From: Daucus carota subsp. sativus
Lineage: Eukaryota; Streptophyta; Magnoliopsida; Apiales; Apiaceae
Direction of reading: 5' to 3'
Length of the DNA stretch: 64,000 bases
NCBI RefSeq assembly: GCF_001625215.2
Contig: NC_030387.2
Span: 38,835,606-38,899,605, forward strand
Shown here: piece by piece, positions 21,142 through 27,479 of the stretch
Layout: each line of letters begins with the position of its first letter
Numbering within the stretch: the stretch's first letter is position 1
Made by a program: the position numbers and the translations under genes
Notes under the pieces: model-generated
The model's database searches: none
The model's input: only the letters and a program-made list of their open reading frames with translations
Told to the model about the DNA's origin: nothing

Positions 21142-22554
21142 CACAAGATAAATAATTACTAAGAATAATTAATGATAAAAGTATTAATATATAAAAATTG
21201 CAATCTTCAAAAAATATCTAAAATTTTAAGTAACAAATTAAATAAAATGTAATAAACAAGCCAACAAAATGGCACTGAATTGCCGTTTATTAGGCCAAGA
21301 ATATACGCCATCAATCATGGCCACCCATAAATGGTACAAATAAAAGCCAAATCAAGACTGCAAGTCAATATACACCAGTTGATATTAATTGAAATACAAC
21401 ATCTTGAGATTTCAATAGGTTTTAAATAATATCATACTAGCCTATAACCCGTGCGAAGCACGGGCGACCATATAATTTTAATTTGATTATTTATAAGCTT
21501 AATATCATTTTATTAGTGTTTTTTTATTAATTAAAAAAAATGATATTAAATTATATTAGTCGATTAATTATATTTACTTTTGAAATTTTGTCTTGTACAA
21601 TATTTTTCTGTATTATAAGATATCAGTACAAACAATCAATTTTTTTATATATATGTGAATGTTTTCTTAATATTAATATATGATAATGTGGTTTTTGATT
21701 AATATTACCTCATATTTTTCACATTTCATTGCATAGCACATGATACCATTGTATTGGAAAAAATTTAGTTATATTAAAATATTGAGCTAAAATTTTTAGT
21801 TATTGGAAAAAAAATCTATTCATTTAAAGATTTTAGTTATTAAAATATTTTTATTATCCATATGTGAATTTTTTTCTTAATATTAATATATAATAATATT
21901 GGAAAATGCTACGACAATAAGGGTGATGACTCCAGAGCAAAAGCTGCTCTTTGTCTGTATTCTTGTTTGTCTAATGTGTAGAGCAGGTGAACTAACACGT
22001 TTGTTGAGATAAAATAAAATAAAATTATTTTATTAAATCTTTGTTGAGATATACAATTTAATCTTAATATTCCATTATATAAAATTTTATAATTATTAAA
22101 AAATACATAAAAGTGTATATTGAAAAATATTTATCAACTAAGATATACCAATATCACCTAATCACCCATTCAATAATATTTAAACGATAACTAAAAACTT
22201 GTAAGTCATAACTTTGTTCAAGGTCACAAAAAATTATAATACTAAGTATTAAATTAAATTGATATTATAAAGATATAAGGATACAAAGAAAAAGCAAAGA
22301 TATTTTGACAAATAAATAAATTAATATAATATTGTACAAATATTTTAGATGCTTACTATTTATTATGGATAACAATTTTTGATTTCCATAAATTCTAATT
22401 CAAAATATATATGTTCTTGTGAGAATATTATAGTCTCCCTGTAATTGCTTAGTCTTCAACCAAACCCTCCTGTTCTAGAACCAAAAAACAATTTTGCTGG
22501 ACTATAGTCCTAAAGATCTAGCCAGCATTCTCTTCTCAGGTTCAATGTTAGCAC

Positions 22555-22727
22555 CTTGAATCAAGAAAATCAAAAGATTCATCTTCAACAGATATAGACA
22601 ACCACAGTCTGGTTACACGAATCAAAATCTTCCGGTCCGTCTTTGTACTGTTAAGGCTTGTCATGTTTTGATACGACACGACCTCATCCACCATTGCCAT
22701 GTTGTGATGACGAATGAATAAGGGACT
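22555..22727 (-). pseudogene. RPA/DUF223-like exon inside the Helitron
   Basis: An open exon between a plausible acceptor (GTGCAG) and donor (AAG|GTGCTA) reads MAMVDEVVSY, then QNMTSLNSTKTDRKILIRV, then TRLW. This resembles the start of the first OB-fold in plant RPA70-like (DUF223) proteins, which are common in plant Helitrons. No continuation exon was identified, so it is a fragment. It could be element-borne or captured from a host RPA1 gene. Confidence 0.5.
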
Positions 22728-22993
22728 CTGCACCTACATTTTTTATAAACAAATTAAAAAAGTGTATTATTATGACACTCCTTATAATGGGCAACATTAA
22801 ATTTAAACATTACCTAGGAGTTATATCAAAAAATAGCACAACTATATTGCTGACAAACAAATGACAGCACATCTATATGAAATGCCAACATATGACATAT
22901 TTGATGATATAAAACCTATATCACCAATTGATTCAAATTATAGAAAACAACACTTCAGCTAACAGACAGGGAGGGAGGGAGATTTTAGGTAAC

Positions 22994-23101
22994 CCTGCAC
23001 TACTTTTGCCACGTTATCATAAGTATAAACAAATTCATCATCTTTCAATGCTACAATGTAATCCAGAGGAGCAAGTCGTTCATGGTTGTCCCAAGCGTAG
23101 T
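22994..23101 (-). pseudogene. O-fucosyltransferase-like exon fragment inside the Helitron
   Basis: A 108-bp exon with acceptor TTAACAG and donor CAGG|GTTACC. It reads [19 protein letters not shown] followed by [12 protein letters not shown]. This matches the conserved LDYIV...DVFVYTYDGNMAKAVQG block of plant GDP-fucose O-fucosyltransferase (DUF246) proteins, with one glycine of the YDGN motif missing. Only this exon is visible. Same strand as the Helitron and the other captured fragments. Confidence 0.6.
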
Positions 23102-23482
23102 CTGTTAAGGTATATAAGACCTTATAAAATAAATAATCTAGGCAAAATATTTAAAACTAACCACCAATTAATAACACCAGACCTTCCATTATATTAGATT
23201 CCCGAGAATACTTTGGTAATACTTTTAATGATTATATCTCAACTATTTGGGACATAAAAAGTCACACAACAGTCTGTTATTATTATAGGCATTTTTAGTA
23301 GTCAAGACTTGAATATATATAAATATAGTAGCAGGAACATAAACACAGTAGCAGCAGTTGGAGGTTACTTCGCTTTTAGTCAATCAAGTAAATACAATGA
23401 AAATAATTACAATATATATATAGCCAAAATATAATCTTTAAGCGAAATAAAAAGCAAGCTCGACAATTAAATGCTAACTAAC

Positions 23483-24203
23483 CTGGTGATCAGTTCTTGA
23501 ATCGGTCAAAATGAGGAGACGGGGTCACTAAACAACGTCTGCAACTGATTAGTAAAAGTACCGGGAGTGTGACGGCCAGCAATAGCATTGGCACCCGTGT
23601 ACTAAGCAAATTTCAACACCGCTCTCTAACCATAGGGCCTGGCAGACTGGACAATAATGTCCTGGGGGTTCTCCATGGCAACACTGACTCTGGCTGCCAT
23701 CTGAAGCTTCTCCCATGTCTTGCCCAAATTGATAATATAAATACCTACTCATTAAAATACACCTAATCAAGCCAACACAATAAACTATCTAATCACTCTA
23801 TATCCTATCTGACCCTTAAAGTACACAATTCCGACATAAGCTACTCCCAGATTTAACCAATATCAAGACATATATACAACGAAACTAATTATTCATCCTT
23901 CACGGGAGTAATAAACAACATTTATTAAAATTATTAATTTACCGAGATTAAAATTTCTATGTGAGCGCGATATACCAAATATGTTTGGTTTGGTTTGATT
24001 TATATATCGGATATAAGAAAGTAAAGAAAAACAAGAAAGAAACAAAATGTGATGTAAAAAGTACCATCGTTGCGGCGCTTGAAGACATAACGTTCCATTT
24101 GAAAGTCACAATTTTTGGCACCGAGATGCACCTCAGCCGCCAACATCTTCTGAATGTCGGCCTCTTTGGAAGTGAGTTCTCTAGCTATGCCGCCGCTCGC
24201 CAT
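23483..24203 (-). pseudogene. RPSA: 40S ribosomal protein SA fragment (exons 1-2) inside the Helitron
   Basis: Exon 1 (24065-24203) encodes an intact start ending [19 protein letters not shown] and RRNDG. Exon 2 (23483-23744) continues [18 protein letters not shown] to [11 protein letters not shown]. Ribosomal protein SA is a small-subunit protein; here it is dead. Two family-conserved Gln codons have become TAG (PYG*RAVLKFA*YTG), and a one-base deletion shifts the frame before the expected RLLILTD motif. Later exons are missing; unrelated Helitron sequence follows. Introns are kept, so it was captured from genomic DNA and is not a retrocopy. Confidence 0.88.
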
Positions 24204-25471: not shown

Positions 25472-25547
25472 CTGGAACCAGTAAATCCAATTAACACAAC
25501 AACACAACAAAAACAATACTCGAAAAGAACACGAAAAAAGCGGTATA

Positions 25548-25600
25548 CCAAAAAACGTGAATAAAAAGTAGAACTACAAAATATACCTATGTTGGCTTAT
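25548..25600 (-). repeat. Internal copy of Helitron 5'-terminal sequence (repeat Y)
   Basis: On the minus strand ATAAGCCAACATAGGTATA...CACGTTTTTTGG closely matches the first part of the Helitron at 27366-27420, but the outermost TCTATACTATACT bases are replaced by unrelated sequence. It is probably the remnant of a second Helitron 5' end. Confidence 0.78.
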
Positions 25601-26065
25601 CCAAGTGCATATAGTCAGCCTCAAAATAAAAAAATCAATAAAGAAAACTGCATATAGTAATTTGACAGTGTCAGTACTCTGATGCATACGTGTAGTACAA
25701 CATTATCTGACATATATTCCATATTTTTTGTAATCTAAAAATAATTAATGTACAAAGTATTATTTCTTTCAACTCTGAAAATTAAAGGCAAAGAAAAGAA
25801 TTTTTAATTTAGAAGTAGAATAAATCATAAATATTTGTTACAGAAACCGAAATGTGAATCCGAATAGAAAGCCGTGACAAATTTTCATGTTAATTCTCGT
25901 CAAAATGTTTAAATCAATATCTAAAAGAGATGTTAAGATTTTAACTCAAATTTATGTAAAGATTGATGAAAAAATCCCCCTCTTTATTTTTATGCTGGCT
26001 CCGCCACTGTTTACAAGTAACAAGTGATATCCAAACTTAACAACTGAAGGCAAGTAATGACTAAC

Positions 26066-27172
26066 CTGCATGATCTTTTGGACTAAGACTATCCCCAGCC
26101 TTAGCTCCTGGATCTCGACTGGAAGATCTGATTAGAAATCGCAACCAGCATTAGTAAAGGCAATGGAATCAAATAAAACAGATTCACAAGAGCGAATATA
26201 GCTTACATTCGATATAGTACCATATAGACACGCCTACTTAATTCATACTCCCCAACAATAGTTCCTGCAACAATTCCTCTAGCTCCGCGATATGGAAAAT
26301 CATACCATCTAGTTCTAGATTTCAGGAAACTTTCTAGAAAATCGTGCAAGGATGTATCACCTGCCACTGTAACAACAATAGAAAAAATAAACAGAATGCT
26401 GTAATAATTATTCCATTCGTTAAAATCGAAACAATTGTTCTTTTTTACACTGGATTAGTATTTGATTTAAGACCAATGTATCACCTCAAAGTCTTACCAT
26501 ATTCACTCTTCTATTTCTAATATATCATTCTATTTTATCATAATAAATAATCATTTGTGTGTGAAATATAAGGTGTCAAACATACTACTAAGTACGAACT
26601 AAGTTGTATAAATTCCAGCAAAACTGTGAGCTGAATACTAAGCCACTTAAGATTATTATTATTCGTTAAATTAACAACGCTATGATAAAATTGTAAGAAC
26701 TACTCTGCAAACTTGAAAATTGACATCAGTAATCAGCCAAACATTCAAAACAACAAACCACCAAAATATGAAAGCTATGAATTTACAACAACATTCTTTC
26801 CAGAATTCCCGAGGATTCAATTTCAGCAAACGCGACAATTCTCGATTAAGCAAATCGACAACACGTTGCGACTCAATAGGATCCAATCCACATCAGCAGC
26901 CAATCCGATCCAGAAGCAACCGCCTCATCATGTGGCAAATATTTTACAAAATTGCCACTCCACGTCTAATTAGGCACCGAAGCGTCGTCTTTCCGTGTGA
27001 GCCTGTTTCCGGCGGTCGCAGACGATGCGACGGCGCTGGAATCGGAGTGACGGAGAGAATCGGAGAGTTTTTGTGCTGATGAATTAGGGTTTTTGGGGAC
27101 GAATTGTTGTTTTCTAGGATTGAATGCGCCTCTTGAGCCTTCGTTTTTGTTGTGTGTGTAGCGATTAGACAT
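26066..27172 (-). pseudogene. ASCC2: ASCC2 homologue, first exons, inside the Helitron
   Basis: Starts MSNRYTHNKNEGSRGAFNPR at 27172 and contains SGNFVKYLPHDEAVASG, DPIESQRVVDLLNRELSRLL and LNPREFWKE. The next exon (26207-26366) reads VAGDTSLHDFLESFLKSRTR to ELSRRVYMVLYR. Exon 26066-26127 reads SSSRDPGAKAGDSLSPKDHA. This is the N-terminal part of the plant homologue of activating signal cointegrator 1 complex subunit 2, a CUE-domain ubiquitin-binding factor of ribosome quality control and DNA repair. A TAG after ...DDASVPN and at least one indel before DPIES break exon 1. The part encoding the CUE domain is absent. It includes the parent's probable 5' UTR, and transcription would start near the Helitron 5' end. 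Confidence 0.87.
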
Positions 27173-27479
27173 TGTGTATGTATGTGTGTATAACTCTGTG
27201 ATTCTTGTGTGGAGTTTGATGCGTCTGGCAGCAGTGTCTTTTAGAGATGCATATGTATGTACTGGGAATTGGTTTTGTCTGCAATGGAGAGAGAGTCCTA
27301 ACAGGACACGGTTTTTTAGACAGTAGTATAGCACGAGCACGGAAAGACGAAACGGAGAGACGAAACCAAAAAATGTGAACAAAACGTAGGACTACAAATT
27401 ATACCCATGTTGGCTTATTATAGTATAGTATAGATATGTTCAATTTAGTCAATTTAGTCAACCCCAACCGGAGATGCTA

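Follow-up and report, generated by a model that had tools for sequence, protein, structure and literature searches.

Gene-capturing Helitrons of maize have been deduced, from comparisons of related elements, to take up their cargo stepwise, and they contain internal pseudo-termini, 5′ ones included (Dong et al. 2011, PMC3288121). The insect Hel1 elements also acquire sequence internally and stepwise, with junction matches of 2–13 bp that are taken as filler-DNA capture (Han et al. 2019, PMC6544945), and plant Helitrons carry RPA-like sequence, as in the work on rice DHH_Mothra (Roffler et al. 2015, PMC4683698). We describe an element at positions 21437–27434 of a 64,000-bp stretch of the carrot genome (Daucus carota subsp. 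sativus, C7:38835606-38899605; the window). The element itself is real, and it is almost certainly a non-autonomous plant Helitron of 5,998 bp, belonging to a family with common ends and varied cargo, whose own cargo was built up stepwise.

The carrot element resembles the maize Helitrons (PMC3288121) in its common ends, in holding several gene pieces from different chromosomes, in sequential capture and in its internal pseudo-termini. It differs from them in species and genes and in the exchange of its 3′ half with a second subfamily; in the carrot element three steps can also be dated against intact genes, with an agreeing order. Stepwise internal acquisition is shared with insect Hel1 (PMC6544945), but the Hel1 pieces are short (source ~70–100 bp), whereas the carrot element has a duplicated 5′ end and gene pieces of kilobase length that retain introns. 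Like other plant Helitrons (PMC4683698) it carries RPA-like sequence, and some distant relatives of this piece adjoin RepHel genes; the element itself, however, has only a broken 530-bp piece in its 3′ half and no RPA gene. It is a further case of the known stepwise-capture process, with an unusually complete record. Literature searches found nothing on a Helitron with ASCC2, and nothing on carrot for Helitron gene-fragment capture (the sole match concerned a fungus); any claim that the element is undescribed depends on these searches only.

Ends and relatives of the element

The 5′→3′ direction of the Helitron is the minus strand of the window, and positions within it are given as e = 27435 minus window position. 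The original prediction, made from the letters alone, had a Helitron with a TC start, a terminal hairpin, a CTAG end and A/T flanks, and these borders are confirmed by pattern counts, folding and the flanks of siblings. The 5′ terminus is TC, and the 3′ terminus is of the CTRR form after a short GC-rich hairpin, with TTATAGG between the hairpin and the CTAG that precedes the flanking T. The hairpin pattern (two mismatches allowed) matches once in the window against 0.09 expected, the 5′ 31-mer occurs once against 0.00 expected, and the 3′ 40 nt fold at −8.4 kcal/mol (z −2.9). A and T flank all five elements looked at (the 5′ border of the one on C9 being placed by alignment), and the outer flanks differ among them.

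Both ends recur throughout the genome. The 3′ 100 bp are found in at least 39 other places, at 93–98% over at least 88 of the 100 bases (best 40 of 1031 candidates), and the first 120 bp likewise in at least 39 (best 40 of 1404 candidates), with at least 104 matching bases in 10 of them and a match confined to the first 72–95 in 29. Among these listed ends there are 12 pairings of a 5′ with a 3′ end on one strand within 20 kb; two use the same C9 3′ end, which leaves 11 elements of 6.0–17.9 kb, the window element included. ASCC2 is present in only four Helitrons and nitrobindin in only three, so the genome does contain elements that combine these ends with different contents, the point that the original prediction had proposed to check. 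The four gene-bearing relatives elsewhere (on C6, on C9, and on C5 at 39.6 and 40.6 Mb) have the 3′ end in common, all lie between A and T, and three of the four have the TC start. The five-fragment arrangement was not seen outside the predicted borders; the siblings share the 3′ terminus and depart slightly on the 5′ side, in the C9, C6 and C5 39.6-Mb elements (see below).

The closest sibling, at C5 39.6 Mb, is 99.0% and 98.6% identical to the window element over its two parts. That this copy, and those in other flanks, begin and end at the same family termini, and that the genes concerned are spread over C2, C3 and C4, makes it very improbable that the locus is a segmental duplication or assembly chimera with incidental Helitron ends. 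The high-copy repeat of the left flank, which ends short of the insertion point, would favour such an origin, but same-ended siblings in different flanks largely refute it already. Common termini, siblings with other cargo and flanks, and located source genes thus strongly support the predicted multi-capture Helitron.

The C5 39.6-Mb sibling (L039 s6743 to L040 s8632) is interrupted by a stretch of ~12 kb whose edges are TG...CA-like and which is flanked by TTGTT; this is probably a long terminal repeat retrotransposon nested in the element. A foreign 3′ end for this sibling (92%) was considered and rejected; with gaps left out, the identity is 98.6% over 1290 positions. A further locus (L047, C2:14890001-14899900) has a nearly full-length RPSA copy upstream of a family 3′ end. 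Its homology to the elements on C9, C5 and C6 runs from RPSA as far as the 3′ end, but no 5′ end was recognised within 1.2 kb.

The gene pieces and their sources

The features of the element are collected in Table 1. As predicted, the five fragments share one orientation, the minus strand, which is the direction of the element itself. ASCC2, nitrobindin and RPSA (ribosomal protein SA) are identified, with introns kept in all three, and intact genes are located: those that gave rise to the ASCC2 and nitrobindin pieces lie on C3 and C4, respectively, and C2 has an intact gene for RPSA. Two features go beyond the original prediction, namely a second 5′ end inside the element and the origin of the 3′ half from a second Helitron subfamily.

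Table 1. Features of the 5,998-bp Helitron in window coordinates.
Feature	Position	Strand	Content or basis
Outer Helitron 5′ end	27265..27434	−	A, then TCTATACTATACTATAATAAGCC...; plus ~170 bp of 5′ subterminal sequence
Captured ASCC2 piece	25603..27252	−	~80 bp leader, exons 1–3, introns 1–2, part of intron 3; exon 1 broken
ASCC2 exons 1, 2, 3	27172-26795, 26366-26208, 26127-26066	−	
Buried second 5′ end (= e17-70 of outer end), lacking the terminal 16 nt	25547..25600	−	Alignment to outer end
Captured nitrobindin piece	24339..25526	−	Last two exons (25471-25403, 24900-24782), intron, 3′ flank
Rest of inner 5′ subterminal region (= about e129-168)	24302..24338	−	Alignment
Captured ribosomal protein SA piece	23381..24302	−	Leader, exons 1–2 (24203-24064, 23743-23483), intron 1, part of intron 2
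3′ half from second Helitron subfamily (L050, L051, L052)	21437..23373	−	Alignment
O-fucosyltransferase-like exon, 77 bp (name presumptive)	22992..23068	−	Relatives at C9, C3, C1, C8
RPA-like piece, 530 bp (name presumptive)	22250..22779	−	Block also in three-copy tandem array on C9
3′ terminal hairpin, 7-bp stem, 3-nt loop	21449..21463	−	Pattern match and folding
CTAG 3′ terminus, T next	21437..21440	−	End reads GCCCGTGCTTCGCACGGGTTATAGGCTAG, then T

ASCC2 sequence occurs at five places (5/5 candidates scored), four Helitrons (window, two on C5, C9) and the gene on C3 (L044). In the gene, exon 1 is open and the sequence goes on into a later exon, and the protein, spliced by eye, matches human ASCC2 (PDB 6yxq, E 1.1e-12); a PDB search with two ASCC2 exons alone gave no match. 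Comparison with the C3 gene finds three captured exons, not the four that had been predicted. Another Helitron 5′ end (L044 s6308, C3:11820308) points away from the intact gene at a distance of ~72 bp ahead of its ATG, and sits within ~15 bp of the captured ASCC2 start, through coincidence or some link to the capture; no 3′ end for it was found within ~5.2 kb (three patterns).

The nitrobindin piece is identified by Pfam (THAP4_heme-bd, E 1.5e-10). Its sequence is found in three Helitrons and in the C4 gene (L045), all other matches being at most 102 bp (12/12 candidates scored). Both exons are still in frame, and a 47-bp tandem duplication lies at the last intron (24894-24986).

RPSA was identified with the protein of the gene, through Pfam Ribosomal_S2 and plant 40S SA structures. 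All 27 candidates were scored: RPSA without stops is present at C2:51.5 Mb (L046) and at C6:14.1 Mb, and the copies in Helitrons are broken. Since a second gene exists, the C2 gene may be a paralogue of the true donor. Exon 2 has two in-frame TAG codons common to the window, both C5 copies and C9. The C9 (L043 s4914-5466) and C5 40.6-Mb Helitrons have an insertion of ~550 bp at the same point of RPSA exon 3, which may be one more captured piece.

The original prediction had also raised the prospect of a chimeric transcript driven by the ASCC2 promoter, for which the sequence offers little support. All exons do run in one direction, the ASCC2 splice sites look kept (by eye), and maize Helitrons make chimeric transcripts (PMC4528327). 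Yet homology to the ASCC2 gene begins only ~80 bp ahead of the ATG, so that its promoter is not evident; exon 1 has one stop and one frameshift in the window and frameshifts in the three other copies, and the two RPSA stops stand in all four copies. It is highly unlikely that selection acts on the element as a new chimeric gene with expression from the ASCC2 leader, and we see the cargo as passenger sequence without demonstrated function, not as a new gene.

The remaining two pieces lie in the 3′ half. We take the 77-bp exon to be O-fucosyltransferase-like and the 530-bp block RPA-like, names suggested by the sequence; neither has a Pfam match, and a PDB search with the O-fucosyltransferase-like piece gave nothing relevant. 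That exon has four relatives elsewhere, the best (88%) on C9. Of 13 distant relatives of the RPA-like piece, 5 have a RepHel match on their own strand 4.3–6.8 kb upstream of them, where a random site would have a 0.15% chance; the comparison used 135 RepHel places out of the 168 matches. None of the 8 close relatives is so placed. The piece may be the remnant of a Helitron-type RPA and not of an ordinary host gene. On C9 (L054, L055; C9:20933657, 20937893, 20942128) three tandem units ~4.24 kb apart each contain the 530-bp block at 88%, and this array is a possible donor. Second-subfamily loci (L051 301-669, L053 1119-1583) hold an exon that is presumably fimbrin-like, with a weak Pfam CH match below the cut-off.

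Order and junctions of the captures

Copies with fewer modules survive. The C6 element reads 5′ end–RPSA–3′ end, split by ~9.4 kb inside RPSA; the C9 element reads 5′ end–ASCC2–inner 5′ end–RPSA–3′ end; the C5 40.6-Mb element has nitrobindin as well, placed after the inner 5′ end and ahead of RPSA; and the C5 39.6-Mb and window elements have in addition the second-subfamily 3′ half with the O-fucosyltransferase-like exon and the RPA-like piece. Differences from the genes, counted in non-coding sequence with gaps left out, are 64/470 (13.6%) for RPSA, 89/967 (9.2%) for ASCC2 and 45/933 (4.8%) for nitrobindin, which makes nitrobindin the youngest capture; the C2 RPSA gene is perhaps not the exact donor, and rates may differ between genes. 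Module presence and gene divergence thus give one order, RPSA, ASCC2, nitrobindin, which we infer to be the history of the element. Counted in the same way, the window differs from C5 39.6 Mb at 48/4687 positions, from C5 40.6 Mb at 51/4047, and from C9 at 60/1872 in the 5′ part and 24/953 in RPSA.

On this reading at least four steps would have occurred in one lineage. In the first, the RPSA gene would have been joined ~165 bp inside the 5′ end; at this junction Helitron and gene have ACAAAACC in common (by eye). In the second, the 5′ piece of ASCC2 would have come with a duplicated 5′ end, leaving an inner 5′ end truncated by 16 nt. ASCC2 is flanked by two copies of the 5′ region, of which the inner one lacks the first 16 nt and joins ASCC2 intron 3 via two unexplained bases (by eye); the buried end marks the ASCC2 step. 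The nitrobindin 3′ piece would then have displaced ~58 bp of the inner 5′ region by way of short sequence matches; TCCTnTTnA is common at one junction (by eye). Lastly, the 3′ half would have been swapped inside RPSA intron 2 for that of the second subfamily, together with the O-fucosyltransferase-like and RPA-like pieces. The switch lies beyond e4054, where 7 unexplained bases are followed by e4062-5998, and is common to the window and C5 39.6 Mb; in the C9 and C5 40.6-Mb elements RPSA runs on through later exons instead. The second-subfamily loci are 92.6–95.4% identical to e4124-5998.

For the ASCC2 step there is a serious rival, nested insertion with read-through, which is quite possible although we do not favour it: an RPSA Helitron would have entered ASCC2 intron 3 of an ASCC2-bearing Helitron, and a later transposition would have started at the outer 5′ end and stopped at the inner 3′ end, so that one 5′ end was buried. 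The two 5′ ends and single 3′ end are as it expects, and maize elements with multiple termini have been explained by nesting, 17.6% of maize helAs having several 5′ termini (PMC3288121). However, no ASCC2-only Helitron is found among the five ASCC2 places, and the inner end, lacking its first 16 nt, does not show the clean border of A followed by a TC start. In C9 the outer 5′ end is 90% identical to the inner one over 168 bp, and both have a segment absent from C6; their divergence of 10% is close to that of the ASCC2 intron from its gene (9.2%), which fits duplication at capture too. The shared segment and closer likeness suggest that the outer end probably, though without certainty, originated in this very lineage around the time when ASCC2 was taken up. 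Were nesting correct for this step, the rest of the explanation would stand. A different support for the order was considered, that GCAGACAAAACCAA in the outer 5′ end is a remnant of the RPSA leader, and was rejected: two other 5′ ends (L056, L057) carry GCAGACAAAACCAA without an RPSA match, so that it is the Helitron's own.

The ASCC2 and nitrobindin pieces were most likely brought in when DNA close to the 5′ end was repaired or the template was switched there. The DNA would have been copied in as the element transposed by the rolling-circle (‘peel-and-paste’) route, and other elements of the genome would have provided RepHel; Helitron_like_N profile matches number 168, so helper proteins may exist. 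All three gene captures involve the ~170 bp nearest the 5′ terminus: RPSA enters at ~165, ASCC2 leaves at ~170 and returns at 17 (the end being duplicated), and nitrobindin leaves at ~70 and returns at ~129. We raise, as a tentative and on balance unlikely idea, that the 5′ subterminal region is a capture zone. Shortly after initiation the copying strand would change to another template there; fresh cargo would thus join at the 5′ side and bury the older 5′ ends. Such a mechanism would differ from the end-bypass model, where sequence is added beyond the 3′ end.

Several observations weigh against the account given here. At the borders, the 5′ terminus of the C9 element is degenerate, a 10-bp repeat (TCTATACTAT) precedes the TC start in the C5 39.6-Mb and C6 elements, and the C6 border is less sure in that ~35 bp upstream of its 5′ end (L049 s3583) resemble the flank of another 5′ end (L056 s42, C9:7556042); the two may have entered a common target repeat, or the family border may lie further outward. 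A search for an empty site (best 40 of 727 candidates) gave none, and no other place matches across the joined flanks. None of the 11 paired elements contains a RepHel match among the matches listed, so no autonomous partner is known. As to the order, the C6 ends, given the ~9.4-kb split, are assigned to one element by inference, and identities that count gaps (RPSA 81%, nitrobindin 86%, ASCC2 91%) would make nitrobindin older than ASCC2. The matching letters at the junctions are short (8, 1–2, ~7 and 0 nt, by eye). The outer and inner 5′ ends, at 90–91% to each other against 87–90% to C6, are only slightly closer, and the window inner end, only 56 bp long, is 95% like C6.

A possible place in the Y2 interval and what the record means

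The window contains, in order, genes for a glycosyl hydrolase 47 (30.7 kb), two calmodulin-binding proteins (39.6 and 44.4 kb), a LIM protein (50.6 kb) and a permease (61.6–61.9 kb, Pfam match below cut-off). The fine-map gene list of carrot Y2 gives MNS5, CBP60 A, CBP60 B, WLIM1 and nucleobase-ascorbate transporter 6, with an ABC transporter ahead of the last of these (PMC5555471), and the fit of the gene order at 30677-61883 suggests, as a lead only, that the window lies in the Y2 β-carotene interval. Two points do not fit: CDPK19, just before MNS5 in the list, is not seen in the window, and the list has no counterpart to the NAGLU gene on the left side of the element. A NAGLU-like stretch is present twice on the minus strand (2264-2359 and 12894-12989), indicating a second NAGLU copy left of the first, with an F-box open reading frame (4162-5502) between the two. 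Identity of the element with the Helitron published in an EX1-like Y2 candidate gene was rejected, as that insertion is 17 kb long and in another gene (PMC10581907).

In Table 2 of the fine-mapping paper, DCAR_026112 (‘40S ribosomal protein SA’) stands two genes ahead of MNS5 (PMC5555471). RPSA matches on C7 are confined to the two exons of the broken piece in the window element, and this entry may therefore be transposon cargo. The locus suggests that part of the apparent gene content of a crop quantitative trait locus interval, carrot Y2, may be transposon cargo. For Helitrons, a datable series of surviving intermediates of one multi-gene element makes models of capture testable on defined junctions.

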